From Siphonodentalium dalli (taxonomy: Eukaryota; Mollusca; Scaphopoda; Gadilida; Siphonodentaliidae): 64,000 bases of DNA. Positions within the stretch are counted from its first letter, which is position 1, and each line of letters starts with the position of its first letter. Below the pieces are notes generated by a model. The model was not told the origin of the DNA. It did no database searches and worked only from the letters and a program-made list of their open reading frames with translations. Below are positions 13,679 through 58,039 of this stretch, piece by piece. The stretch lies in assembly GCA_032622095.1 (NCBI GenBank), contig CP136069.1, forward strand, positions 123,122,126-123,186,125, given 5' to 3'. Both the position numbers and the translations under genes were made by a program.

Positions 13679-13684
13679 CATGAT
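13679..13684. repeat. Left 6-bp target-site duplication (CATGAT)
   Basis: CATGAT lies directly outside the left terminus of the giant palindrome and again directly outside the right terminus at 22409-22414. Six bp is the length reported for Polinton/Maverick insertions. Confidence 0.8.
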
Positions 13685-14712
13685 AGAAGAATAGGAGGCT
13701 CGTTCGCCTCACATCTAAAAATAGAATCTTTGGGGTCTAAAATTGGTTGTACTAAAATATTCCCAAAATATCAAAACCCAAAAAAAATTTCAAAACTTCC
13801 AAAAATTATTTTTTCCAAAAAATTTCAAAATCCCAAAACTTCCAAAAAATTTTAAAACCCCAAAATTTCAAAAGAAAAAATTTCAAAACCCTCAAAATTA
13901 TTTCTCCAAAAAAAGTTTAAATAAAAAATTTATAACGAGTTTTCGGTTTCTGATAATCTCGATATTAAAAAAAATGTCGAATGTTAAATTATTTGCGCGT
14001 AATATCTTTCGTTATTTTTTTTGTTCAACCAATGTTTCAATGTATTTATTAATCGATGTTTAGAAATAGCTTTATTGGACATTGTGACCATCGGTATGAA
14101 TGCATACATTCCAGTGTTTTATCGGACGCAGTTCATATAATTGTCATACCTGAAAATAGACACCATTACTTTTACATAAATAATAAAGAGCGTTTATTCT
14201 TTACACTCTCTCTATCCCAGATGAAGTTATTGAGTATATGACAGGTGTGTATTATCGTGAATTATTGGAAGTATTGAGATGTACTATGTTGAATCACTAA
14301 CGGTCGAAAATTGTAATGTGAAATTACAACCCTCCAGAATGAATTGTCATATTCGCTGTACACGCAATCACACACGCGACATTGGTGGTAACAATGTGTC
14401 TTTCACACTTTGCTTTACCAAATGAATTATATTATTTCCCCGTTCACAGTTATATGCTATTCAGAAAACATATCGACTTAATGTCTGAACAAACGGGTTA
14501 GTATCAATTAAGGTTGATAAACTGTGTCATTGTTAGCATTAACACGATAATTAGTTATCCAAAACATGCATACATATTACGTCCAGGTCACTCAATTATA
14601 GAAATTGCTTCGGTGTCATTGTTATAACAACATTACGTAATAACCACTTATCACTCCATTCACACTTACGATCATTTTGTATACCAAAAATTTCAATATA
14701 ATGAAGATGACG
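13685..14712 (+). repeat. Outer terminal segment, left (1,028 bp)
   Basis: Mirror image of 21381-22408. After the AG terminus comes an A-rich block (about 13740-13930) of short degenerate CCAAAAATTTCAAAA-type units. The open frames across it are low-complexity artefacts. At about 14180 it carries ATAATAAAGAGCGTTTAT, which also occurs in the inverted repeats around the reverse transcriptase at 31.6 and 35.9 kb. No gene is supported. Confidence 0.8.
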
Positions 14713-14867
14713 AAAAGTTACCTATAATTCTGCTGTGGTTAAGCCACAACAACAACAACAACAACAACACCAACAACACCAACAACAACAACAACAACAA
14801 CAACAGTCACCAAGCGACATAACATCCTGTTTTGATGATCCAATGGCCAATGTCCATGAAGATTTTA
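14713..14867 (+). pseudogene. Deleted mini-unit: ITR fused to an ATPase gene fragment (left arm)
   Basis: It starts with the inner-unit terminal sequence (AAAAGTTACCTATAATTCTG) and jumps straight to the poly-Q codons. It continues in the sense frame through the stretch corresponding to residues ~63-82 of the ATPase, then breaks off at 14867 into the next terminal repeat. Most of the gene is missing on both sides. Mirror copy at 21241-21380. Confidence 0.75.
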
Positions 14868-14952
14868 TTTCCGATGCAAGTCATATTTCAGACTAACTCC
14901 TGAAAAGTTACCTATAATTCTGCTGTGGTTAAGCATTCCATTATTTAGGGCA
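14868..14952 (-). repeat. Terminal inverted repeat of the inner ATPase unit, outer end (left arm)
   Basis: Contains CTAACTCCTGAAAAGTTACC followed by TATAATTCTGCTGTGGTTAA. It is the inverted counterpart of 17915-17995 at the hairpin end and stops at TTTCCGATG, where the hairpin arm is truncated. Confidence 0.8.
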
Positions 14953-15126
14953 TACCTGTATGTAGGCCTACCAGTGGATGAATAGTCTGCCGGAGAAGTA
15001 CTGTGTAGACAGGTCTTGTCGGTAAGAAAGTCAGACGAGTAGTGAAGGCTCGGCTATTAAAACATAGTAATGCGATAGCGAACATCAAACGAGTCTGCGC
15101 ACGCATATCTGTCAAAGGATACAATG

Positions 15127-15214
15127 GCAGTCATTGGTCAATTTATCCCCGGTGTCAGCTCGGTACAATAACAGTCATTGGTCAATTTATCCCCGGTGTC
15201 AGCTCAGTACACAA
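15127..15214. repeat. 44-bp tandem duplication
   Basis: CAGTCATTGGTCAATTTATC and the following CCCGGTGTCAGCTC occur twice in direct order. Mirrored in the right arm near 20885-20975. Confidence 0.85.
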
Positions 15215-15247
15215 TCGGCACGAAGCCGGAGGTCATAATTACTCTTA

Positions 15248-15806
15248 CGAATGAAGAGCGTTGAACATATACGAAATTATTACACGAATGAACTGAAATT
15301 TATATTTCACATCTTACCAACAACAGATACAGACATAGTCATAGTGTTATACTATCTTACATGTACCCATGCTGTGACATCATTCGAAGGGGCAATACAC
15401 GCAAGGAGTTAAAGTGACACGAAACAAGGGACGTGATGTAATATTGGTGTTTGAATCTTAAAGGAACACAAGACACTCTAAAGGGACACTCATTATGAAT
15501 GAATGTTAACAATACAAGCGCACGAATGAAGAGCGTTGAACATATACGAAATTACTACACGAATGAACTGAAATTTATATTTCACATCTTACCAACAACA
15601 GATACAGACATAGGCATAGTGTTATACTATCTTACATGTACCCATGCTATGACATACTTAAAGGGGGATAATGCACGCACGGTGTGGAATGTTAAAGTGA
15701 CACGAAACAAGGGACGTGATGCAATATTGGTGTTTGAATATTAAAAGGAACACAAGACACTCTAAAGGGACACTCATTATGAATGAATGTTAACAATACA
15801 AGCGCA
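15248..15806. repeat. ~275-bp tandem duplication (left arm)
   Basis: Two direct units, 15248-15522 and 15523-15806, each starting CGAATGAAGAGCGTTGAAC and ending AATACAAGCGCA, with small internal differences. Mirrored at about 20284-20843. Confidence 0.85.
15499..15744 (+). CDS. Possible 81-aa protein within the duplicated block
   Basis: An ATG-started frame of 81 codons covers the second 275-bp unit. The peptide is mixed in composition (MKSVEHIRNYYTNELKF... in the middle) with a hydrophobic stretch ILPTTDTDIGIVLYYL. In the first unit the same frame diverges and stops early. It is antisense to the ATPase of this arm. I do not recognise the family, and coding is unproven. An identical frame lies at 20364-20609 on the minus strand. 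Confidence 0.25.
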   Translation: MNVNNTSARMKSVEHIRNYYTNELKFIFHILPTTDTDIGIVLYYLTCTHAMTYLKGDNARTVWNVKVTRNKGRDAILVFEY

Positions 15807-15978
15807 GTGGTTGAAAGTTAAAATGACAGATCAATATTTAAGGGTCAAATTTTCGGGCACTTAATGCACCTTTTATCATTACGTATCGTTTCTCACTCTA
15901 CAATTCCCAATAATCCACACACTCTCTCCCCCCAGCTTATAGATATATAACGAAAACGAGAATATCATGTTGATGAAG

Positions 15979-15984
15979 TTTATT
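15979..15984 (-). terminator. Polyadenylation signal of the left ATPase unit
   Basis: AATAAA on the minus strand, five bases after the stop codon of the downstream reading frame; its mirror is at 20124-20129. Confidence 0.6.
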
Positions 15985-15989
15985 GAAAT

Positions 15990-16373
15990 TTAATCGTCCG
16001 AATTGTCATCACTTTCGTCAGAAGTGTCATATGTTACGTCCATGAATTTTTCTAGCATCGGTTTGTACTTTAATATTGACATTTTCACTGCATCACATTC
16101 TCCATAACCATTATTCAAATATTTGTCGACTTTATCCATGACTCTGTTGTGCAGAGTCCCATTGCGCAGCTGCAGATACGATACTATTGTCCAAGCATAA
16201 TCATTCATAAAGTGTATCATATCTTTACTTTTAAGGTCCTTGTCAGCTTGTTCTTTTGCTTCTGCGTCTTTCGAGCCATTTTCCTTATACGTGTCCACTT
16301 TATCACTCCATTCCTCACGTGTTTTATCTCTACTTTCATCACACAAACTTTTGAAGTATTCATCTTCATTCAA
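15990..16373 (-). pseudogene. C-terminal acidic part of the ATPase protein, now out of frame (left arm)
   Basis: A 127-codon acidic/lysine-rich frame ending in a run of D/S/E (DTSDESDDNSDD). Its first codon is TTG, not ATG, and it directly overlaps the end of the ATPase frame. Comparing arms, a 13-bp segment present at about 19697-19709 in the right arm is absent here. Without that deletion, the frame would run on from the zinc-finger region. It is therefore more likely the separated C-terminus of one larger protein than an independent gene. Identical peptide at 19735-20118. Confidence 0.55.
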
Positions 16374-17524
16374 TTTAATTTCCTTATTCTGACTATCATT
16401 AATTTTCGTTTTAACTTATTTTCTTGACACCAGTTTTTTACGTGTCTCTGAACATCATAATGATCTGCGAACAAAAGCCCGCATTCGTTACAAGGGTACG
16501 ACATGTCTTCTCGAATGTTTTGACGGTTCTTCTTATTAATTTCATCGAGCTCACCAGGTGGCCGTATGTCGTTAGTATAGTCATTATGTTGACCCTGGGG
16601 CACAATATAATTATATGTTATGCCCTTCTGTTGACCAGGGAGTTCTCTGTCATCGTATTTCATCGCATTCTGTTGACCCTGGGTCTCAGTGTCTTTTGTA
16701 TGTTTTTTCATCCCATTCTGTTCATCTGGGTGTTCTCTGTCTTTTTGGAGATTATATTTCATGCCATTCCATTCACCCCTATGTTGGTTCGTGTCCTCTT
16801 TTAGTACATTCTGTCGCAGACGTAATGTGTCCGGTGTTGCGGCTTTTAAATCCACCAGTAGGTAACCGTACGGTTCACTCGTCGCTTCCGAAAACTCTCG
16901 AACCATACGCTGAGGACATTCAGGATACATCTGTCTTGATAATGTTGAAATTAATCCCTTGTCGATTGGGTTATTGAACAATACCAAATATTGACAATTT
17001 CGTCGTTGCGTTGGATCTTTGTTGTAGTAGAAATTCTGGTTCAAACTTATCAAAGATAAGTTCAAATGGTGACTTCCTTCGGAATGCAAATCATTAACTC
17101 TCTGGTCTTTTGATGAAGTTTGCATCAAGTCATCGAGTATAACTATATTTTTATACCGGGGGTTGATAAGCGAATCCAAGTTTGCTGGTATTCCTCGTAT
17201 AAAGTTGACCTGAGGGGTGACGGTATACTTTAATTCGTCATATAGGGGCTGCCAATATTTATAAAACCATATTATTCTGTCAGGTGCGGGTGATATTTTT
17301 GAGGCAGACTTTTGTAGTAAGGTTTTCACGAAGTATGTCTTACCACAAGATGTCGGTCCACTTACACATGCCGTGAATGGATGCTTGAAAATAAAATCTT
17401 CATGGACATTGGATCATCAAAGCAGGATGTTATGTCGCTTGGTGGCTGTTGTTGTTGTTGTTGTTGTTGTTGTTGATGATACTGTTGTTGTTGTTGTTGT
17501 TGTTGTTGTTGCGGCTGATGATAC

Positions 17525-17558
<34 letters not shown>

Positions 17559-17646
17559 CTGAAGGCGTGTGTTTAACTTTGATATGACGCTTCAAACTAT
17601 CTTGCCAAGCATAGACACTTAAGCACTCTTCACATTGATACTTCAT
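16370..17646 (-). pseudogene. Zinc-finger/poly-Q P-loop ATPase, frameshifted copy (left arm)
   Basis: The minus-strand gene starts at 17646 with a C2H2 finger (C5, C8, H21, H26), then two glutamine runs separated by YH-containing spacers. Compared with the right arm, one 7-bp direct-repeat unit (within CCAATGGCCAATG) is missing near 17415. This shifts the frame just before the ATPase domain, and the ATPase then stays open in the shifted frame down to 16370. Walker A (GPTSCGKT) and Walker B (IVILDDLM) are intact as sequence. Unlike the right copy, the C-terminal finger keeps its last cysteine (C-x2-C...H-x4-C). Further down, a 13-bp deletion separates the acidic tail. Function, by family: ATP-driven DNA packaging; this copy is probably non-functional. 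Confidence 0.8.
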
Positions 17647-17687
17647 TTTCCTATATAATCAGTGAAATCGAGCGTTCTTCTATGCAC

Positions 17688-17701
17688 CTATATTTATATA
17701 G
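17688..17701 (-). promoter_or_regulatory. TATA-like box for the left ATPase gene
   Basis: CTATATAAATATAG on the minus strand, about 42 bases upstream of the ATG at 17646; the mirror image is at 18439-18452. Confidence 0.55.
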
Positions 17702-17914
17702 AACAGAAACAAGGGAAACGTGGTGGACTAGTTAACTAGTTCAGGCTGTCGTTCACAACGTCTCTTAGTGTTGTTTGTACTGGATACAAATTTATCACAT
17801 TAGCTACAATACAACCTACCTATCCAAATGTCAATGCAATTATGAGTGATTTCAATATGAACACTCTATTATATAGATATGTGTAACCTGGTGACTGACA
17901 TGATGATACAGTTA

Positions 17915-18000
17915 TGCACTAAATAATGGACTGCTTAACCACAGCAGAATTATAGGTAACTTTTCAGGAGTTAGTCGGAAATATGGCTTGTTGCCATTCA
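17915..18000 (+). repeat. Terminal inverted repeat of the inner unit, hairpin end (left arm)
   Basis: Reads TGCACTAAATAATGGACTGC then TTAACCACAGCAGAATTATA and AACTTTTCAGGAGTTAGTC, leading into the central hairpin. It is the inverted counterpart of 14868-14952, so the ATPase unit of about 3.1-3.2 kb has matching ends. Confidence 0.85.
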
Positions 18001-18144
18001 TCGGAAAGCTCTCGCCGGCGGCGGCGGTATTGCGGTATTTTACTGCGGCGGCGGCGGTGCCGCCGCCGCCGCCGGGGTCCGCCGCCGGCGGACCCCGCAG
18101 TAAAATACTGCAATGCCGCCGCCGGCGAGAGCTTTCCGATGAAT
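18001..18144. other. Central T-shaped hairpin (A-B-B'-C-C'-A')
   Basis: Outer stem: 18001-18046 pairs with 18097-18144 (with one 3-nt bulge and a mismatch). Inside it sit two independent hairpins. B is CGGCGGCGGCGG (18046-18057) with loop TG and B' CCGCCGCCGCCG (18060-18071). C is GGGGTCCGCC (18074-18083) with loop GCC and C' GGCGGACCCC (18087-18096). This fold plan matches dependoparvovirus-type inverted terminal repeats. The GC content is extreme against an AT-rich background. It forms the axis of the 8.7-kb palindrome. The structure is read from sequence; its role as a replication telomere is inferred. Confidence 0.8.
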
Positions 18145-18145
18145 G

Positions 18146-18233
18146 GCAACAAGCCATATTTCCGACTAACTCCTGAAAAGTTACCTATAATTCTGCTGTG
18201 GTTAAGCAGTCCATTATTTAGTGCATAACTGTA
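18146..18233 (-). repeat. Terminal inverted repeat of the inner unit, hairpin end (right arm)
   Basis: Mirror image of 17915-18000, running out from the central hairpin through CTAACTCCTGAAAAGTTACC to TTATTTAGTGCATAACTG. Confidence 0.85.
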
Positions 18234-18438
18234 TCATCATGTCAGTCACCAGGTTACACATATCTATATAATAGAGTGTTCATATTGAAATCACTCATAA
18301 TTGCATTGACATTTGGATAGGTAGGTTGTATTGTAGCTAATGTGATAAATTTGTATCCAGTACAAACAACACTAAGAGACGTTGTGAACGACAGCCTGAA
18401 CTAGTTAACTAGTCCACCACGTTTCCCTTGTTTCTGTT

Positions 18439-18452
18439 CTATATAAATATAG
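18439..18452 (+). promoter_or_regulatory. TATA-like box for the right ATPase gene
   Basis: CTATATAAATATAG, 42 bases upstream of the ATG at 18494. With its mirror copy it makes the central region a divergent promoter pair about 740 bp apart. Confidence 0.55.
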
Positions 18453-18493
18453 GTGCATAGAAGAACGCTCGATTTCACTGATTATATAGGAAA

Positions 18494-18620
18494 ATGAAGT
18501 ATCAATGTGAAGAGTGCTTAAGTGTCTATGCTTGGCAAGATAGTTTGAAGCGTCATATCAAAGTTAAACACACGCCTTCAGAACAACAACAACAACAACA
18601 ACAACAGTATCATCAGCCGC

Positions 18621-18675
<55 letters not shown>

Positions 18676-19696
18676 GCCACCAAGCGACATAACATCCTGC
18701 TTTGATGATCCAATGGCCAATGTCCATGAAGATTTTATTTTCAAGCATCCATTCACGGCATGTGTAAGTGGACCGACATCTTGTGGTAAGACATACTTCG
18801 TGAAAACCTTACTACAAAAGTCTGCCTCAAAAATATCACCCGCACCTGACAGAATAATATGGTTTTATAAATATTGGCAGCCCCTATATGACGAATTAAA
18901 GTATACCGTCACCCCTCAGGTCAACTTTATACGAGGAATACCAGCAAACTTGGATTCGCTTATCAACCCCCGGTATAAAAATCTAGTTATACTCGATGAC
19001 TTGATGCAAACTTCATCAAAAGACCAGAGAGTTAATGATTTGCATTCCGAAGGAAGTCACCATTTGAACTTATTTTTGATAAGTTTGAACCAGAATTTCT
19101 ACTACAACAAAGATCCAACGCAACGACGAAATTGTCAATATTTGGTATTGTTCAATAACCCAATCGACAAGGGATTAATTTCAACATTATCAAGACAGAT
19201 GTATCCTGAATGTCCTCAGCGTATGGTTCGAGAGTTTTCGGAAGCGACGAGTGAACCGTACGGTTACCTACTGGTGGATTTAAAAGCCGCAACACCGGAC
19301 ACATTACGTCTGCGACAGAATGTACTAAAAGAGGACACGAACCAACATAGGGGTGAATGGAATGGCATGAAATATAATCTCCAAAAAGACAGAGAACACC
19401 CAGATGAACAGAATGGGATGAAAAAACATACAAAAGACACTGAGACCCAGGGTCAACAGAATGCGATGAAATACGATGACAGAGAACTCCCTGGTCAACA
19501 GAAGGGCATAACATATAATTATATTGTGCCCCAGGGTCAACATAATGACTATACTAACGACATACGGCCACCTGGTGAGCTCGATGAAATTAATAAGAAG
19601 AACCGTCAAAACATTCGAGAAGACATGTCGTACCCTTGTAATGAATGCGGGCTTTTGTTCGCAGATCATTATGATGTTCAGAGACACGAAAATTAA
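18494..19696 (+). pseudogene. Zinc-finger/poly-Q P-loop packaging-type ATPase (right arm, C-terminus truncated)
   Basis: The 400-residue frame is ATG-started. Residues 5-26: C2H2 zinc finger (C5, C8, H21, H26). 31-61: glutamine runs of 8 and 19, encoded almost purely by CAA. 85-100: HPF...GPTSCGKT, the Walker A motif (93-100). 164-171: LVILDDLM, Walker B. 197-201: SLNQN with the conserved-type glutamine. About 250-270: PYGYLLVDLK. The domain plan resembles viral/Polinton genome-packaging ATPases (FtsK/A32-like), which translocate DNA into capsids; that is family knowledge. A 34-bp deletion after H396 removes the last cysteine of the C-terminal finger and ends the protein early. Nothing else in the packaging pathway is present in the window. 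Confidence 0.8.
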
Positions 19697-19734
19697 CTGA
19701 GGACCCGGATGATAGTCAGAATAAGGAAATTAAA

Positions 19735-20118
19735 TTGAATGAAGATGAATACTTCAAAAGTTTGTGTGATGAAAGTAGAGATAAAACACGTGAGGAATGG
19801 AGTGATAAAGTGGACACGTATAAGGAAAATGGCTCGAAAGACGCAGAAGCAAAAGAACAAGCTGACAAGGACCTTAAAAGTAAAGATATGATACACTTTA
19901 TGAATGATTATGCTTGGACAATAGTATCGTATCTGCAGCTGCGCAATGGGACTCTGCACAACAGAGTCATGGATAAAGTCGACAAATATTTGAATAATGG
20001 TTATGGAGAATGTGATGCAGTGAAAATGTCAATATTAAAGTACAAACCGATGCTAGAAAAATTCATGGACGTAACATATGACACTTCTGACGAAAGTGAT
20101 GACAATTCGGACGATTAA
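19735..20118 (+). pseudogene. C-terminal acidic part of the ATPase protein, out of frame (right arm)
   Basis: Identical 127-residue frame to 15990-16373. Here the frame is open upstream through about 19681 without a start codon, in a different phase from the ATPase because of the 34-bp deletion. Charged and probably helical, with an acidic tail. Family not recognised. Confidence 0.55.
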
Positions 20119-20123
20119 ATTTC

Positions 20124-20129
20124 AATAAA
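20124..20129 (+). terminator. Polyadenylation signal of the right ATPase unit
   Basis: AATAAA five bases after the stop codon at 20116-20118; mirror of 15979-15984. Confidence 0.6.
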
Positions 20130-20283
20130 CTTCATCAACATGATATTCTCGTTTTCGTTATATATCTATAAGCTGGGGGGAGAGAGTGTGTGGATTATTG
20201 GGAATTGTAGAGTGAGAAACGATACGTAATGATAAAAGGTGCATTAAGTGCCCGAAAATTTGACCCTTAAATATTGATCTGTC

Positions 20284-20843
20284 ATTTTAACTTTCAACCA
20301 CTGCGCTTGTATTGTTAACATTCATTCATAATGAGTGTCCCTTTAGAGTGTCTTGTGTTCCTTTTAATATTCAAACACCAATATTGCATCACGTCCCTTG
20401 TTTCGTGTCACTTTAACATTCCACACCGTGCGTGCATTATCCCCCTTTAAGTATGTCATAGCATGGGTACATGTAAGATAGTATAACACTATGCCTATGT
20501 CTGTATCTGTTGTTGGTAAGATGTGAAATATAAATTTCAGTTCATTCGTGTAGTAATTTCGTATATGTTCAACGCTCTTCATTCGTGCGCTTGTATTGTT
20601 AACATTCATTCATAATGAGTGTCCCTTTAGAGTGTCTTGTGTTCCTTTAAGATTCAAACACCAATATTACATCACGTCCCTTGTTTCGTGTCACTTTAAC
20701 TCCTTGCGTGTATTGCCCCTTCGAATGATGTCACAGCATGGGTACATGTAAGATAGTATAACACTATGACTATGTCTGTATCTGTTGTTGGTAAGATGTG
20801 AAATATAAATTTCAGTTCATTCGTGTAATAATTTCGTATATGT
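20284..20843. repeat. ~275-bp tandem duplication (right arm)
   Basis: Mirror image of 15248-15806. It carries the same 81-codon frame on the minus strand (20364-20609). Confidence 0.85.
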
Positions 20844-21155
20844 TCAACGCTCTTCATTCGTAAGAGTAATTATGACCTCCGGCTTCGTGCCGATTGTGTA
20901 CTGAGCTGACACCGGGGATAAATTGACCAATGACTGTTATTGTACCGAGCTGACACCGGGGATAAATTGACCAATGACTGCCATTGTATCCTTTGACAGA
21001 TATGCGTGCGCAGACTCGTTTGATGTTCGCTATCGCATTACTATGTTTTAATAGCCGAGCCTTCACTACTCGTCTGACTTTCTTACCGACAAGACCTGTC
21101 TACACAGTACTTCTCCGGCAGACTATTCATCCACTGGTAGGCCTACATACAGGTA

Positions 21156-21240
21156 TGCCCTAAATAATGGACTGCTTAACCACAGCAGAATTATAGGTAA
21201 CTTTTCAGGAGTTAGTCTGAAATATGACTTGCATCGGAAA
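21156..21240 (+). repeat. Terminal inverted repeat of the inner ATPase unit, outer end (right arm)
   Basis: Mirror of 14868-14952. It runs from TGCCCTAAATAATGGACTGC to CATCGGAAA, where it breaks into ATPase gene sequence. Confidence 0.8.
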
Positions 21241-21380
21241 TAAAATCTTCATGGACATTGGCCATTGGATCATCAAAACAGGATGTTATGTCGCTTGGTG
21301 ACTGTTGTTGTTGTTGTTGTTGTTGTTGGTGTTGTTGTTGTTGTTGTGGCTTAACCACAGCAGAATTATAGGTAACTTTT
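21241..21380 (-). pseudogene. Deleted mini-unit: ATPase fragment plus ITR (right arm)
   Basis: Mirror of 14713-14867. The CAA run is about 15 bases shorter than in the left arm. Confidence 0.75.
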
Positions 21381-22408
21381 CGTCATCTTCATTATATTGA
21401 AATTTTTGGTATACAAAATGATCGTAAGTGTGAATGGAGTGATAAGTGGTTATTACGTAATGTTGTTATAACAATGACACCGAAGAAATTTCTATAATTG
21501 AGTGACCTGGACGTAATATGTATGCATGTTTTGGATAACTAATTATCGTGTTAATGCTAACAATGACACAGTTTATCAACCTTAATTGATACTAACCCGT
21601 TTGTTCAGACATTAAGTCGATATGTTTTCTGAATAGCATATAACTGTGAACGGGGAAATAATATAATTCATTTGGTAAAGCAAAGTGTGAAAGACACATT
21701 GTTACCACCAATGTCGCGTGTGTGATTGCGTGTACAGCGAATATGACAATTCATTCTGGAGGGTTGTAATTTCACATTACAATTTTCGACCGTTAGTGAT
21801 TCAACATAGTACATCTCAATACTTCCAATAATTCACGATAATACACACCTGTCATATACTCAATAACTTCATCTGGGATAGAGAGAGTGTAAAGAATAAA
21901 CGCTCTTTATTATTTATGTAAAAGTAATGGTGTCTATTTTCAGGTATGACAATTATATGAACTGCGTCCGATAAAACACTGGAATGTATGCATTCATACC
22001 GATGGTCACAATGTCCAATAAAGCTATTTCTAAACATCGATTAATAAATACATTGAAACATTGGTTGAACAAAAAAAATAACGAAAGATATTACGCGCAA
22101 ATAATTTAACATTCGACATTTTTTTTAATATCGAGATTATCAGAAACCGAAAACTCGTTATAAATTTTTTATTTAAACTTTTTTTGGAGAAATAATTTTG
22201 AGGGTTTTGAAATTTTTTCTTTTGAAATTTTGGGGTTTTAAAATTTTTTGGAAGTTTTGGGATTTTGAAATTTTTTGGAAAAAATAATTTTTGGAAGTTT
22301 TGAAATTTTTTTTGGGTTTTGATATTTTGGGAATATTTTAGTACAACCAATTTTAGACCCCAAAGATTCTATTTTTAGATGTGAGGCGAACGAGCCTCCT
22401 ATTCTTCT
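21381..22408 (-). repeat. Outer terminal segment, right (1,028 bp)
   Basis: Inverted copy of 13685-14712 with the same length, ending ATTCTTCT. It carries the T-rich mirror of the A-rich block and the ATAATAAAGAGCG motif (inverted) near 21905. Confidence 0.8.
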
Positions 22409-22414
22409 CATGAT
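22409..22414. repeat. Right 6-bp target-site duplication (CATGAT)
   Basis: Direct copy of 13679-13684, immediately outside the right terminus. Confidence 0.8.
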
Positions 22415-31809: not shown

Positions 31810-34110
31810 ATGCTCTTTATAATAGAACTTGAAAACATGGAAACGTCAGATCCGAGTGAATACTGGAAGTTTATTAAAAAAATGAGAGATGATAGTAGGA
31901 AAGATAACGACGATCTTGATCCAGACATTATGATTTATATTGCAACAGCGCTCATCGGGATAAAGATACTTTTATATGTAAAACAGACAAACCTAAGATC
32001 ATTTGCGATCTCAATAATGATGAAATTTCGACCCTGGAAGTAATAGGCGTTCTGAAGAGTTTGAAAAATAATAAATCTCCAGGCAGTGACGGGCTGCGGA
32101 ATGAACTATTGAAAGCCGTCGGACCGATTATGGCACAAGATTTAACAAAGTTGTTTAATTTGGTTCTGAACTCTTCATATTATCCTACATGTTGGAGCGA
32201 GTCCACACTGACACCTATCTATAAAAAAGGTGATCGTCACGATCCAAACAATTATAGAGCTATAGCTTTGAGCAGTTCTATAAGTAAAATATTTAACAAA
32301 ATAATCAATACACGAATTTCCAAATTTTTGGATGATAATGATATTATAAGTGATAATCAATATGGATTTAGAAAAAATAGAAGCACGATTGATAGTGCTT
32401 TCATTTTAAAATCGCTAACTACTAAGTACCTGAAAGAGGCAAAACCTCTATATGCAGTATTTGTAGACTTCCGTAAGGCATTTGATACTGTCCACCGAGA
32501 GACAATGTTTACTAAATTGAAACATGTTGGTATCAATGGCAATATTGTGAAAACTATTGAATCTATGTATGCGTCAAGTGCTTATTCGGTACGAACTAGC
32601 CAAGGTTATGGGCCTCATATTATTTCAAATATTGGCGTTAGACAAGGATGTATTATTTCTCCCACAATTTTCAAAATATTTATTGATGACATTAGCGCCG
32701 AATTTTATGATTCGTGCAAACCGGTTAAAGTTGGCGAATAATATCTAAGTCATATGCTATTTGCAGATGATCTGGTTATGCTATCTGAAACTGCTGAAGG
32801 TATGCAAAGATGTTTGAATAAATTGGAGAATTACAGCATAAGGAACAAAGTAGAAGTGAATCTTCAGAAAACTGAATGCCTGATATTCAGGAAACGAGCA
32901 ACAAAAAAAATAACTGCCTTTAAATTAAGCAACACTCCGTTGGAAACAGTTAAGGAATATACCTATCTTGGTATTAAATTTTGTGCGAATGGAAAATTTT
33001 GCAAAGCCCAGATAGATGTTAACAACAAAGGGTTAAAAGCAATGTATAGTTTAATGTCATCCTTGCGCAAACATGAAATTTTCTCAGTAAGCATTTGGTG
33101 TAAACTATTTGACAAGCTGATAAAACCTATCGTTTTATATGGTTGTGAAATATGGGCATCGCATATTAATATTAACAAGCTCGAATCTATTCCATGTGAA
33201 ATTACACATGTTAAATTTTGTAAATCGGTGTTGGGTTTAAATAGAATGGCGTCTAATCACGCGACAAGAGCAGAATTGGGCAGATTTCCGATAGCACATG
33301 ATGCGATAATGAATGCTGTAAGATATATGCTTAAACTGTCTGAAAGAAAACCGAATATGTTACTTCAGAATTCTGCCCAAATATGCGAGGAATATATAAT
33401 TCCACCGTTTTTGGCAGAAGCACTTCACATGCCAAAAATAAGCGATTTAGAGAATAACCTATCGCTGGAATATCTCAATAAAGTCCGGGAAGAATTAAAA
33501 TGCGTTCATATTCTAACGTTCAAAAACGAAATATTCGATGACAACAAGAAAAATGGTATGAATAAATTAAGAACGTATCGTTGTTTCAAAGAACAATATG
33601 AAATTGAACCATACTTACTCCAAATTACTAATTTTTATACGAGATCGTGTTTCAGTAAGTTTAGAGTAAGCAATCATAAGTTGCAGGTAGAGGTTGGGCG
33701 ACACGCTCAGCCAAAAATACCTTACGAGAAACGCATATGTAAAAAATGTGAAGCAAATGAAATTGAAACGGAAGAACACTTTATAATGAGATGTGAAAAA
33801 CATAACCATTTGCGGAAGAGAATTTTCACTGAAATAGGAGTTCACCAACCAATTTTCGTAAACTTTGATGAAATAGAAAAGTTCATATTCCTCATGAAGG
33901 CTGAACACCCGAGCATATGCAATCTGATCTGTAACATGGTTCGGCAGTTTTCCGCAAATAAATGAGAATATAGTGTTGAGTTACAAATACATGTTATATA
34001 TATATTTTATATGAAATTTTCTTGACTTGTGTTTAAATTATCTGTATTATGACAACTGCCCCGCGTGGGTGTATTATGTCAATAAAAAAATGTTAAATGT
34101 TAAAAAATGT
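31810..34110 (+). pseudogene. LINE reverse transcriptase, 5'-truncated and mutated
   Basis: The reverse transcriptase of a non-LTR retrotransposon, which copies element RNA into DNA at a nicked target. The N-terminal lead (31829-31925, DPSEYWKFIKKM) is followed by a frameshift. Then come KSPGSDG, GFRKNRSTID, VFVDFRKAFD (catalytic Asp motif), GVRQGCIISP and, after an in-frame TAA at 32739-32741, LFADDLVML (catalytic FADD) and YTYLGI. The frame continues to 33965 with a C-terminal CKKC...H...C-type finger. No endonuclease domain precedes it. The 3' end has an AATAAA at 34081 and ATGTTAAATGTTAAAAAATG tail repeats near 34090-34115. Its position between inverted repeats is unusual for a LINE. Confidence 0.85.
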
Positions 34111-53455: not shown

Positions 53456-53570
53456 TAGACCTAAACATGAAGCAATAAGTGAAATGTATTGGATGAAATG
53501 ATAACGTATAGGCAAAGTAATAATGCGATATATAATCACTTATAATAAGAATAATGTATCATTTTTTAAA

Positions 53571-54047
53571 TTAAAGGTACTCAATCCGAACAGAGGGTCC
53601 CCATCTCAACAGATTCCAACAACAACAATCCGATCAGAGGGTCCTATATTACTATTTCTTTGGCTTTGGGGGTTAAAAATATTTGATTCGAGTCGAGGAA
53701 CCCATCAAACAAAGCTCAGAGTTATTAGATATTGATTTTTGAAATTTGTTATTAACTCGAGATGAGTACTAATAACTGCCGTAATCTGCTCTGGATGTGT
53801 ACTCCAAATCTATTCAAACAGACAAGGATGGATAACTCTAAAATCAAGTGGTAATTTTAACGCAATATTGACTGAGTTCTGGGCCAGATAGTATTCCCGA
53901 TAATGAAAAATAATAGATTTATAAAATCGATATCTAACAAATCTGAGCTTTGATGGGTGACTTCCTCGACTCGAATCAAATATTTTTGACCCCCGAAGCC
54001 ATTGAAATAGTAATTGAGAGGAGTTTTATCGGATTGAGTACCTTTAA
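53571..54047 (+). mobile_element. TTAA-bounded 477-bp element, plus orientation
   Basis: Starts TTAAAGGTACTCAATCCGA and ends TCGGATTGAGTACCTTTAA: perfect terminal inverted repeats with TTAA. The interior has further inverted symmetry around CTCGACTCGAATC / GATTCGAGTCGAG. Copy in the opposite orientation at 55388-55863. Confidence 0.85.
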
Positions 54048-54987
54048 CTTTTTCGTTTATAAAGATGCATTCAGGGTTACAGACCTCCACTTTCTACACG
54101 GAGTATAAAAGAATGTAACACAATTTGGTTTGTCCAATCGATAACATGTCATATCCAATAAAATCTTCTCATAGCTTGTATAAGAAATACTGATAGTCGA
54201 GGTCGCCACAAAATTACGATGTATAGTTACTAGTTTATTGTCTACACGATGTAAATCCGCCGCGATGGTGTTGTATATACACATATACTATCTCCAGCAA
54301 TGACCAAGAACCGGAACTGCTATCAGCTCCAAGATATACGAAAATATCACAGAAATATTACAAGAATATATTTGTCAGTTTTGAATTCGCGCAGCTAGGT
54401 GCGCGAATTTAAAGTGCGCAAATTCAAAACTGAGCGAAAGATAGTACAGCGCGAATTTAAATACGAGTAAGGTATATTAATTAGCCTGTTGTCCAGAATA
54501 CACATTTAAGTAACTAATTCATTTATTTAGTCTTCCCAATACACTGTTCAAAGAGTTTCCGTAAGTTTACGGAGTAAAGCGCTGGACAAATATTTTCCAG
54601 AACTTTGTTCCGTAAAATTACGGAGCTATTAACCGTAATATTACACGACATTTGTCCGTAATTTTACGGTATACAATCATCTGTGAAACAATTTTGTCCG
54701 TAAATGTTTATGGTTCAACGTACTGTATTTGTACGGACTTGCGTTCCGTAAGTTTACGGTAAAATCATCTGTGAAAGGATTTATCATGTATATCTGACAA
54801 ACATTTGACATATACTTTTATCACATGATTAGCACTATTTTCCGATGTAATATTCGAGCGTAATAGACACGTGTAATATCGTCGCGTGCTATGACGTCAC
54901 GCTGCTCTTTGGGACAATGATCGCTGGCTGCAGTTAATTGTTGTTTTCGATAATTTTTTAGCGATTATATGATCATGTGATAACAAG
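54048..54987. other. Spacer with short palindromes
   Basis: A hairpin at 54378-54440 (CAGTTTTGAATTCGCGCA / GTGCGCAAATTCAAAACTG) and a cluster of CCGTAA..TTACGG palindromes at 54559-54572, 54610-54623, 54656-54669 and 54746-54759. No gene. Confidence 0.6.
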
Positions 54988-55130: not shown

Positions 55131-55387
55131 CTCTATATACAGTGGCTCGAGGTTAAATATACAGTTCCTTTCATTTCATTGCCTCTTATACGTTACATGA
55201 AGACAATTTTAAGTGTATAATTATAGGAAATTGTTGGAACTAAAAATTGTTTGGCTGAATTCGTTTAATTCGTAGGTTCTGCAGAGCAGCATGTCCCGGT
55301 TAACACCGTTTGTCGTCATTTCGCATGCAAATTCACACATTTCGCATGCAAATTATACACATTTTGTTTAGTTTCAATATTTCTTAG

Positions 55388-55863
55388 TTAAAGGTACTCA
55401 ATCCGATCAAACTCCTCTCAATTACTATTTCAATGGCTTCGGGGGTCAAAAATATTTGATTCGAGTCGAGGAAGTCACCCATCAAAGCTCAGATTTGTTA
55501 GATATCGATTTTAGAAATCTATTATTTTTCATTATCGGGAATACTATCTGGCCCAGAACTCAGTCAAAATTGCGTTAAAATTACCACTTGATTTTAGAGT
55601 TATCATCCTTGTCTGTTTGAATAGATTTGGAGTACACATCCAGATCAGATTACGGCAATTATTAGTACTCATCTCGAGTTAATAACAAATTTCAAAAATC
55701 AATATCTAATAACTCTGAGCTTTGTTTGATGGGTTCATCGACTCGAATCAAATATTTTTTACCCCCAAAACCAAAGAAATAGTAATATAGGACCCTCTGA
55801 TCGGATTGTTGTTGTTGGAATCTGTTGAGATGGGGACCCTCTGTTCGGATTGAGTACCTTTAA
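55388..55863 (-). mobile_element. TTAA-bounded 476-bp element, minus orientation
   Basis: Inverted copy of 53571-54047 with high identity and the same TTAA termini. Confidence 0.85.
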
Positions 55864-56044
55864 TACCTGTTCCTTAGTAATGCATTTCACTGTACGTGAA
55901 GGTCCCTACTCGAAATGGCACGATTTAAGCATCGACGTACATATATGTCGATGATTTAAGTGACTTTGTGATCTATTTTGCTTTGCGTTGCTTATACAAT
56001 CATGAAATGTCTTCGGCATGGTTAATTAATTAAATATTTATTGC

Positions 56045-56869: not shown

Positions 56870-58039
56870 TTACAATGTCAGGAATGAGAATATTCCAATA
56901 GTAATTGCTACTGCGGCGATGCCGTGTAAAATGAAGAATATGAAATCCATTTTCCTCGCCACTGTCTTTCTTTTTGTCAATCTATCTCCACTAGGACTCT
57001 GTGGTTTTGCAGATACTCGTCTTCTAGATAGACAGCAACACTGTTTAAGGGTCGATTCGTGTTCTTCTCTGTCATTCAGCCAGATGGCTATGGCGGCCAT
57101 GAATACCGCGACTGCACACATGACTAGCGTGAGGATGAGGTAAAGCAGGAAATAGCTAGTAGAACTCGCTGTGCGTGGTGTGAGGCCTGCTATGTATGTC
57201 ACGTATACAGCATCGGTAAGAAAGATCGAAACAGCAAAGGATAGTTTCTCACCCGACTCTGCAGGGACCAAGAAAACCGTTGTTGCTAAAAAGGTCAAGG
57301 CAATTGGCGGTATGATGTCAATCATAGCGTGCAATGTCGGTTTCCTTTGAATGTTGAAGTTGAATGCCATCATTTCAGTTTGGTGTTGTTGTGATTTGGA
57401 TTGCGATCCTTCACACGACACAAGCGCCCACAGTGTGTTATCTTCATACAGATTCAACCGAACGGCTATTCTTGATACAGCCACATGCTCCTTTTTGTAT
57501 GTCTCTATGTTCAGATTTAAGATGCATGTTTGTTTGTCATATGGATAAAAGGTAATATCTAACAAACATGAGAACCGAAACATAGCACGGACATTCATCT
57601 GAACGGACCCAGATGAATAGAAGCTTACGTAACTGCGTGTTGTATCCAGTAGAGATTCTGAACTTCCAATACTATTCGTCACCGCTAATGGAGGAGACCA
57701 TACGTTTGCTGTGGTGATTGCGACCTCGGTATCTGACTCGAAGATACCATAACTCGAACCGTTGAACCTGAGTCGTTCATCTTCCCAATGGACTTTCAAA
57801 TCACCAAGGACTTCCATTTCGTCGCTTGTTTCGATGATCCGCACAATCTGCTTTGGCAGAAAGGTTATCGTGACGTTCGTTGTTGTGTTTTTAGGTGGTC
57901 TTACTCTGACGTCATAGCCGGACGTGTCGAGGAGGTCTCTCAGGAGTGCGGTCTCATCCGGAACAAAAGACAGAGATATCACTAAATCTGAGCAATGAAT
58001 CATTATCAGGGAACAAACTGCCAGCACGTATGCAAACAT
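56870..58039 (-). CDS. Intronless Cys-loop ligand-gated ion channel subunit (nAChR-like)
   Basis: A 389-residue pentameric channel subunit for the plasma membrane. Hydrophobic signal peptide at residues 1-23. Extracellular domain with N-glycosylation sites at N51, N55 and N93, and W114-SPP near the usual WxP motif. The Cys-loop is C158...C172 (CLLDITFYPYDKQTC, with FYPYD). M1 ~237-258 with IIPP; M2 ~264-287 beginning GEK (cation-channel type) with L274 at 9'; M3 ~296-320; a short cytoplasmic loop of ~45 residues with CCC at 334-336; M4 ~364-387. There is no vicinal Cys pair in loop C (only C209), so it is not a classical alpha subunit. D276 at 11' of M2 is unusual. An in-frame TAG lies two codons upstream of the ATG, which fixes the start. 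It is slightly shorter than typical nAChR subunits (about 450-500). It lies antisense within DFPase intron 1. The ligand cannot be predicted. Confidence 0.92.
   Translation of the reverse strand: MFAYVLAVCSLIMIHCSDLVISLSFVPDETALLRDLLDTSGYDVRVRPPKNTTTNVTITFLPKQIVRIIETSDEMEVLGDLKVHWEDERLRFNGSSYGIFESDTEVAITTANVWSPPLAVTNSIGSSESLLDTTRSYVSFYSSGSVQMNVRAMFRFSCLLDITFYPYDKQTCILNLNIETYKKEHVAVSRIAVRLNLYEDNTLWALVSCEGSQSKSQQHQTEMMAFNFNIQRKPTLHAMIDIIPPIALTFLATTVFLVPAESGEKLSFAVSIFLTDAVYVTYIAGLTPRTASSTSYFLLYLILTLVMCAVAVFMAAIAIWLNDREEHESTLKQCCCLSRRRVSAKPQSPSGDRLTKRKTVARKMDFIFFILHGIAAVAITIGIFSFLTL

Follow-up and report, generated by a model that had tools for sequence, protein, structure and literature searches.

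A palindromic insertion and its genes

The window (the whole stretch of DNA analysed, 64,000 nucleotides from the scaphopod Siphonodentalium dalli) contains an insertion of 8,724 bp at positions 13685–22408, referred to below as the element, which consists of a palindrome with Polinton/Maverick-type ends and a 6-bp target duplication. A self-comparison of the window placed the left arm at 13685–18048 and the right arm at 18095–22408; the two arms are 98.2% identical over 4371 columns. Differences between them comprise microsatellite indels, a 7-bp indel, a few substitutions, and a replaced stretch near 16400–16441/19688–19708. The palindrome edges are exactly AGAAGAATAG.../...CTATTCTTCT, enclosed by the direct repeat CATGAT, whose left copy (13679–13684) is repeated exactly by the right copy (22409–22414). 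Because the palindrome stops exactly at the Polinton-type termini within this 6-bp duplication, it is one inserted element.

The left terminus (13685–13715, plus strand) reads AGAAGAATAG-GAGG-CTCGTT-CGCCT-CACATC and is identical to the right terminus (22378–22408, minus strand). It contains two hypervariable blocks (13695–13698 and 13705–13709) that vary among elements, and comparison of the termini revealed the same blocks in the right terminus. An autonomous Polinton has a terminal repeat related to the outer 1.0 kb of the right arm (21403–22408, minus strand; mirrored at ~13685–14690), with matches in the copies L128 and L130 discussed below. Each arm also contains inverted, scrambled fragments of axis-proximal DNA and of DNA from the 5' part of the ATPase gene. 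In the right arm, self-comparison located them at 21147–21381 (copies of 18150–18234, 18631–18740, and 18175–18207), and their mirror lies in the left arm; they are perhaps the trace of an earlier axis or of recombination. Elsewhere in the window, a second inverted pair (53570–54049 and 55386–55864, 98–99% alike and ~1.3 kb apart) is probably a different fold-back element. Pfam matches identified a reverse-transcriptase element in two frames at 32061–33965 and a neurotransmitter-gated ion channel ORF at 56870–58039.

An ORF of 400 amino acids in the right arm (18494–19696, plus strand) combines a C2H2 finger, a Gln run, an A32-like packaging ATPase, and another C2H2 finger, as judged from Pfam, relatives, and folds. 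This ORF is shortened compared with its relatives; a second frame in the ORF list (19675–20118, plus strand) resembles the C-terminal part of the relatives when judged by eye against the family alignment (A1). The left-arm gene (16370–17658, minus strand) is broken into the frames 17362–17658 and 16370–17413 (and 15990–16415), and the 7-bp indel between the arms is located at 17413/18710. Both window copies of the gene are broken.

The Pox_A32 match of the window ATPase (E = 8.6e-5) scored 22.6 bits, just under the Pfam cut-off of 22.8; 25 of 28 aligned family members matched this profile at E up to 0.01. In the structure model (mean pLDDT 72.9, low outside the ATPase domain), the nearest PDB fold was the STIV packaging ATPase, and the nearest folds among predicted models were giant-virus A32 and adenovirus IVa2. 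The protein search returned 386 relatives at E up to 1e-3. Bivalve proteins were numerous among the best 120 of these 386, and one mussel relative (P0041) also had an adenovirus-type protease match. The ATPase motifs are conserved across species in the family alignment. PHROGs and PDB sequence searches gave nothing useful for the ATPase domain. No relative was confirmed among viral contigs searched with the window ATPase, alignment A1, a JGI relative, and two short DNA patterns, or among prokaryote genome contigs searched with alignment A1. The gene in each arm is thus that of an A32-like packaging ATPase bounded on both sides by C2H2 fingers. The Pox_A32 profile, the relatives, and the fold place it with the packaging ATPases of the double-jelly-roll virus family, possession of which is a criterion for Polintons.

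Recent variation of the ATPase gene within the genome comprised 14 synonymous and 60 non-synonymous changes, with 20.5% expected to be synonymous. This variation looks neutral, so that a packaging role of the protein is putative in this genome. A peptide from 20367–20609 (minus strand) had no homologue and no Pfam family. Since Pfam revealed no PolB, integrase, or protease among the six element ORFs scanned, the element would depend on a helper; on these ORFs it is at most a non-autonomous Polinton derivative.

The hairpin axis and its recurrence in the genome

The original prediction had read the axis of the palindrome as a T-shaped hairpin with the A-B-B'-C-C'-A' plan of a parvovirus telomere. 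Folded as single-stranded DNA, positions 17983–18157 form a single outer stem capped by two separate hairpins (-112.4 kcal/mol, z = -20.7, with none of 200 shuffles equally good), which bears out this layout. The inner stem A (18031–18044) pairs with A' (18099–18112). A scan for perfect hairpins located B/B' at 18045–18072, with 18045–18056 pairing with 18061–18072, and C/C' at 18073–18097, with 18073–18083 pairing with 18087–18097; the 12-bp arms proposed for B were recovered, whereas the arms of C measure 11 bp and not the proposed 10. The imperfections of the axis stem are a 3-nt bulge (18026–18028) and a mismatch (18034/18109). The outer stem of the hairpin is the whole palindrome, with its two arms (13685–18048 and 18095–22408) as sides. 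The fold, the palindrome, and the presence of an ATPase gene in each arm agree with the proposal that an ATPase unit forms an inverted dimer with a telomere-like hairpin at its axis.

The 83-nt axis core folded with -46 kcal/mol (z = -8.3). Each of 1000 dinucleotide shuffles folded less stably than the 54-nt block containing B and C, and two disjoint perfect hairpins with arms as long as those of B and C did not occur in any of 2000 shuffles. Perfect hairpins with arms of at least 10 accounted for eight rows in the window, four of which were overlapping descriptions of B and C; five shuffled whole windows gave 1, 0, 0, 0, and 1.

The genome searched comprises 2.23 Gb in nine contigs. Long matches to the ATPase numbered at least 104 in at least 67 places and were 98–100% identical to the window protein. 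Of these matches, 93 of 104 had no internal stop, and open frames of ~570–590 codons were present in many copies. The copy numbers are lower bounds, with 104 of 5,702 first-look candidates scored for the ATPase, 40 of 1,934 for the terminal sequence, and 40 of 1,134 for the axis, and the scored samples are biased toward the copies most similar to the window. We inspected 50 of the 67 places, made up of 37 adjacent ATPase pairs and 13 single matches. All 37 pairs were head-to-head, and two inverted arms around an axis were present in 48 of the 50 places. The two asymmetric places are L088, in which one side of the axis was lost, and L127, in which the T is kept and one ATPase arm is visible. 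Perfect 6-bp duplications enclosed all 14 insertions for which both flanks were fully read (the window included); the flanks of a further element agree over the 3 nt read, and the right end of one more lies outside the sequence obtained. The elements form a young, multi-copy family of near-identical copies. In those sampled, the element is usually integrated as the palindromic dimer, which is therefore no chance, unresolved intermediate.

Two side observations concern other parts of the genome. At G000:C1:159746392-159773606 (L123–L126), five terminal matches lie on one strand, four of them with a spacing of ~5.4 kb; the four ends obtained have a common terminus and flank, and the array resembles a tandem duplication of one insertion. 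An old fold-back at L131:719-884, with arms of ~80 nt that are 74–84% similar to the axis-flanking DNA and without a T, is probably a decayed relative.

We classified the axis cores of the 48 paired elements. A T apex, defined as the stem GTATTTTACT/AGTAAAATAC plus B and C with the stem sides 51–54 nt apart, was found in 26; 19 retained B and a stem side but no complete C, and three were different. The second group is a pattern class, in which two of the 19 (L011 and L017) keep both stem sides. It had been stated in advance that the telomere reading would fail if other ATPase units lacked the hairpin or if the GC-rich block were an unrelated trinucleotide expansion. The inverted axes and T apices just described speak against the former. 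As to the latter, CGG/CCG runs within the window are confined to the axis, and in the genome search with axis DNA all 40 scored places (of 1134 candidates) matched on both strands, as expected of a palindrome, and in 38 the match spanned the full query.

The apex type tracks the ATPase haplotype. In the two largest haplotype groups, 16 of 18 elements have the T, against 1 of 13 in the GGA[AT]AT groups; it is also found in several smaller groups. Because the apex type follows the haplotype, the T is probably ancestral, and the apex without C has been propagated. The idea that the T is essential was dropped, as 22 of the 48 axes have no intact T and 19 of these are of the one C-less type. A hairpin axis is general, and its T shape is not essential for spread, because the form without a complete C is common to many copies. 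These C-less axes are the main result against a strict telomere reading.

Agreement of arms and ends, and the likely helper

Arms were compared over 900 nt in the 38 elements with both ATPase arms. The mean difference was 0.13% between the arms of an element versus 0.65% between elements. The partner arm was nearest or tied-nearest in only 23 of the 38 elements, because many arms are identical across elements. At 19 subfamily sites, mixed arms were found in three of the 38 elements (17 cells), whereas 2000 random re-pairings gave a mean of 31.8 mixed elements (minimum 24) and a mean of 171 cells (minimum 117). Two of the three mixed elements, L077 (axis L039) and L084 (axis L028), have arms from different subfamilies and look like joins of two subfamily units. 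Private alleles were present in one arm in 34 cases and in both arms in 15.

The termini provide a marker that is independent of the ATPase arms. Across elements, they follow the pattern AGAAGAATAG-N4-CTC[CG]TT-N5-CAC, and among the 15 elements read at both ends the N blocks, which were entered by hand from the fetched end sequences, combine into 13 distinct pairs. Both ends carried the identical block pair in all 15 of these elements; the chance that two random elements have a pair in common is 0.019. The same variation among elements, with agreement at both ends of each, is seen in the hypervariable blocks of the window (13695–13709 and 22384–22398) and of L089–L126. Because the subfamily sites are rarely mixed and the terminal blocks agree at both ends, both halves of an element are copied from, or corrected to, one arm. 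Together with the 6-bp duplications, this agreement implies that the dimer was made, or its halves were made alike, before integration.

In a search with PF03175, for which 69 of 1595 candidates were scored, many PolB frames resembled one another in length and score. The terminal repeat beside one PolB copy (L128) is 82.9% identical over 1120 columns to window positions 21403–22409, and the right end of another (L130) is 86.1% identical over 1073 columns to the outer arm. The ends of the PolB Polinton have the same block layout as the satellite ends, with other letters. Its gene content was pieced together from three different Polinton copies and includes an integrase core (rve, 2.2e-14) whose tail is a chromodomain (2.3e-8), a protease-like ORF (Peptidase_C5, 5.8e-4, below the cut-off), and its own ATPase, whose protein identity to the satellite ATPase is 29.6%. 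One ORF without a Pfam match is putatively capsid-like, going by its gene position; a long ORF adjoining PolB in L128 also had no Pfam match. In a motif search, GC hairpin runs were absent from these helper pieces. An autonomous Polinton with PolB, integrase, and its own ATPase is the likely helper, a putative link drawn from terminal repeats that are similar (83–86%), not identical.

Downstream of a PolB copy, matches to PC4 (L129:920-1573, 5.5e-15) and TBP (L129:1585-2109, 3e-32) were found. It seems from these matches that a Polinton carries genes for the general transcription factors TBP and PC4, and a literature search of limited coverage found no description of such a Polinton. A second PolB family (frames mostly of ~1,312–1,330 codons) was rejected as a helper: L132–L134 had no match to the window arm. 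In this family, L132 holds its own ATPase, and L131 has a short match to the axis-flanking DNA alone.

Proposed replication, alternatives, and related systems

Our best reading is a satellite that is parvovirus-like in mechanism and a Polinton derivative by its ends, gene, and likely helper. We think it fairly probable that the axis is the hairpin of a young, multi-copy, non-autonomous Polinton satellite, which integrates as a self-complementary inverted dimer and turns round at the hairpin. This reading builds on what was observed directly: the palindrome with its duplications and Polinton-type ends, the recurring apex, the likeness of arms and of ends within each element, and the presence in the genome of a Polinton with related terminal repeats. 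The turn-round as the equalising step, the recruitment of helper enzymes, and any part of the zinc-finger ATPase in packaging are inferred. An extrachromosomal single strand would snap back into a 4.3-kb duplex with a Polinton end on one side and a closed hairpin on the other, the latter T-shaped or, in derived lineages, simpler. Copying would start at the Polinton end, probably with the protein-primed polymerase of the helper, and would pass through the closed hairpin and return, giving a palindromic duplex with two Polinton ends. The helper integrase would then insert this dimer, creating the 6-bp duplication. The arms may have been made alike by the turn-round or by mismatch repair in the folded strand, and the data fit both. 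Against this reading stand the 22 axes without an intact T, the 15 private alleles found in both arms, the low share of elements (23 of 38) in which the partner arm is nearest or tied-nearest, the neutral look of recent ATPase variation, the similarity short of identity between helper and satellite termini, and the two asymmetric places; repair within the folded strand or after insertion could also be the cause of the likeness of the arms.

An alternative that we consider unlikely, though worth serious attention, is that the palindrome arose a single time, when a Polinton end folded back on itself as in a snap-back defective genome, and was from then on copied like any double-stranded element, with the T as a relic and the arms equalised by repair. 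The spread of C-less apices would fit this history, as would the neutral look of the recent ATPase variation, the private alleles in both arms (as conversion would give), and the motif search that found no such GC hairpin in the helper pieces. However, shared subfamily alleles are almost never mixed and the terminal blocks always agree, so that repair would need to be nearly complete in each cycle; the 34 private alleles confined to one arm argue against strong correction after insertion, and the T is found in several haplotype groups. Long near-perfect palindromes can also be artefacts of assembly, an explanation we find scarcely credible for a form that is common to 48 inspected places, has arms differing by substitutions and indels, and ends exactly at transposon termini inside a target duplication in the window and in 13 further elements. 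It is very doubtful that the palindrome is the genome segment of a multipartite Polinton that needs the ATPase in trans. Each unit has one gene, the termini are common to the PolB/integrase Polinton, and many copies have open frames of ~570–590 codons; yet recent ATPase variation looks neutral, and the idea of a needed segment lost weight when an ATPase gene was found in the PolB Polinton itself.

The AAV repeat described in PMC1131931 also has a T geometry made of A, B, and C palindromes. This likeness and the unit of ~4.3 kb would suit a true parvovirus-type telomere, in which the T serves as origin of a replicon that is primed by the hairpin and nicked by a Rep/NS1-like protein. We regard this as highly improbable, as the outer ends and duplications are Polinton-type, the C arm is dispensable, and no Rep-like family turned up among the six ORFs of the element that were scanned. 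No stretch of at least two tandem GNGC units was present in 17983–18157 on either strand, and runs of three were absent from all 48 axis cores. The hairpin is present at the axis alone; the outer ends of the element are open, unlike those of a monomer with two hairpin ends. Together with the likely Polinton helper and the recurrence of C-incomplete copies, these results leave a parvovirus-type hairpin-ended replicon unsupported; the suggestion in the original prediction of a different lineage is supported. Flip and flop were discarded as evidence: both orders occur on the printed strand, which merely reflects the strand read, because orientation has no meaning in a palindrome.

The satellite thus favoured shares features with several known systems. 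Intact vertebrate Mavericks are described in PMC8097293 as having 6-bp duplications, end motifs of (AG)3//(CT)3 or related form, and terminal repeats of 46–1,447 bp. Like Polintons/Mavericks (adintovirus-like), the element has 6-bp duplications, inverted ends starting with AG (AGAAGAATAG), and a packaging ATPase of that family (PMC8097293); its termini are homologous to those of the autonomous Polinton of the same genome at 82.9% and 86.1%. Unlike a Polinton, it is 8.7 kb long and palindromic throughout, with the ATPase as sole gene and a hairpin axis, and its arms of 4.3 kb contrast with the vertebrate terminal repeats given in that source. For AAV, the account in PMC1131931 states that copying through an unnicked closed hairpin gives duplex dimers joined head-to-head around the terminal repeat as axis, and that self-complementary dimers of half-size genomes can be packaged. 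The element resembles AAV (Dependoparvovirus) in its A-B-B'-C-C'-A' T hairpin, in the position of this hairpin at the axis of a head-to-head dimer, and in a unit of 4–5 kb (PMC1131931). In contrast to AAV, it lacks the GNGC Rep-binding repeat, has no Rep/NS1 in the ORFs scanned, and has Polinton-type outer ends, an axis kept as a genomic dimer, and a dispensable C arm. The Bidnaviridae, according to PMC4061559, combine Polinton and parvovirus parts and have terminal repeats that form no parvoviral hairpins; the element shares with them this crossing of features, but the element ORFs scanned contained no PolB or parvoviral helicase gene.

Protein-primed viruses such as adenovirus produce snap-back palindromic defective genomes, which are inverted duplications of one genome end. 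The element is likewise an inverted duplication of one genome end. It differs in having a structured axis and in being propagated as a family of many genomic copies. Nor is its ATPase arm the end of the helper that carries the helper's ATPase, the two proteins being 29.6% identical. A literature search of limited coverage found no such palindromic, hairpin or T-hairpin, fold-back, non-autonomous, or satellite Polinton described in the titles and abstract openings retrieved.

Polintons are regarded as central to how several groups of eukaryotic DNA viruses arose; to our knowledge, the copying of their ends has hardly been studied. A young family that records a one-arm origin in its arms and ends offers natural markers for this process. 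The parvovirus-like axis in a lineage with Polinton ends also bears on how the Polinton and parvovirus parts of bidnaviruses were combined. Should the ATPase act in packaging, the element would live in an animal genome as a packaging parasite of a Polinton. More tentatively, and we hold this as possible but doubtful, the element may be a satellite virus with a protein-primed Polinton end and a hairpin telomere, regenerated in every cycle by turn-round, that would use the polymerase, integrase, and capsid of its helper and claim particles with its own zinc-finger ATPase. If true, it would be the Polinton-lineage counterpart of self-complementary AAV and a new class of satellite virus.
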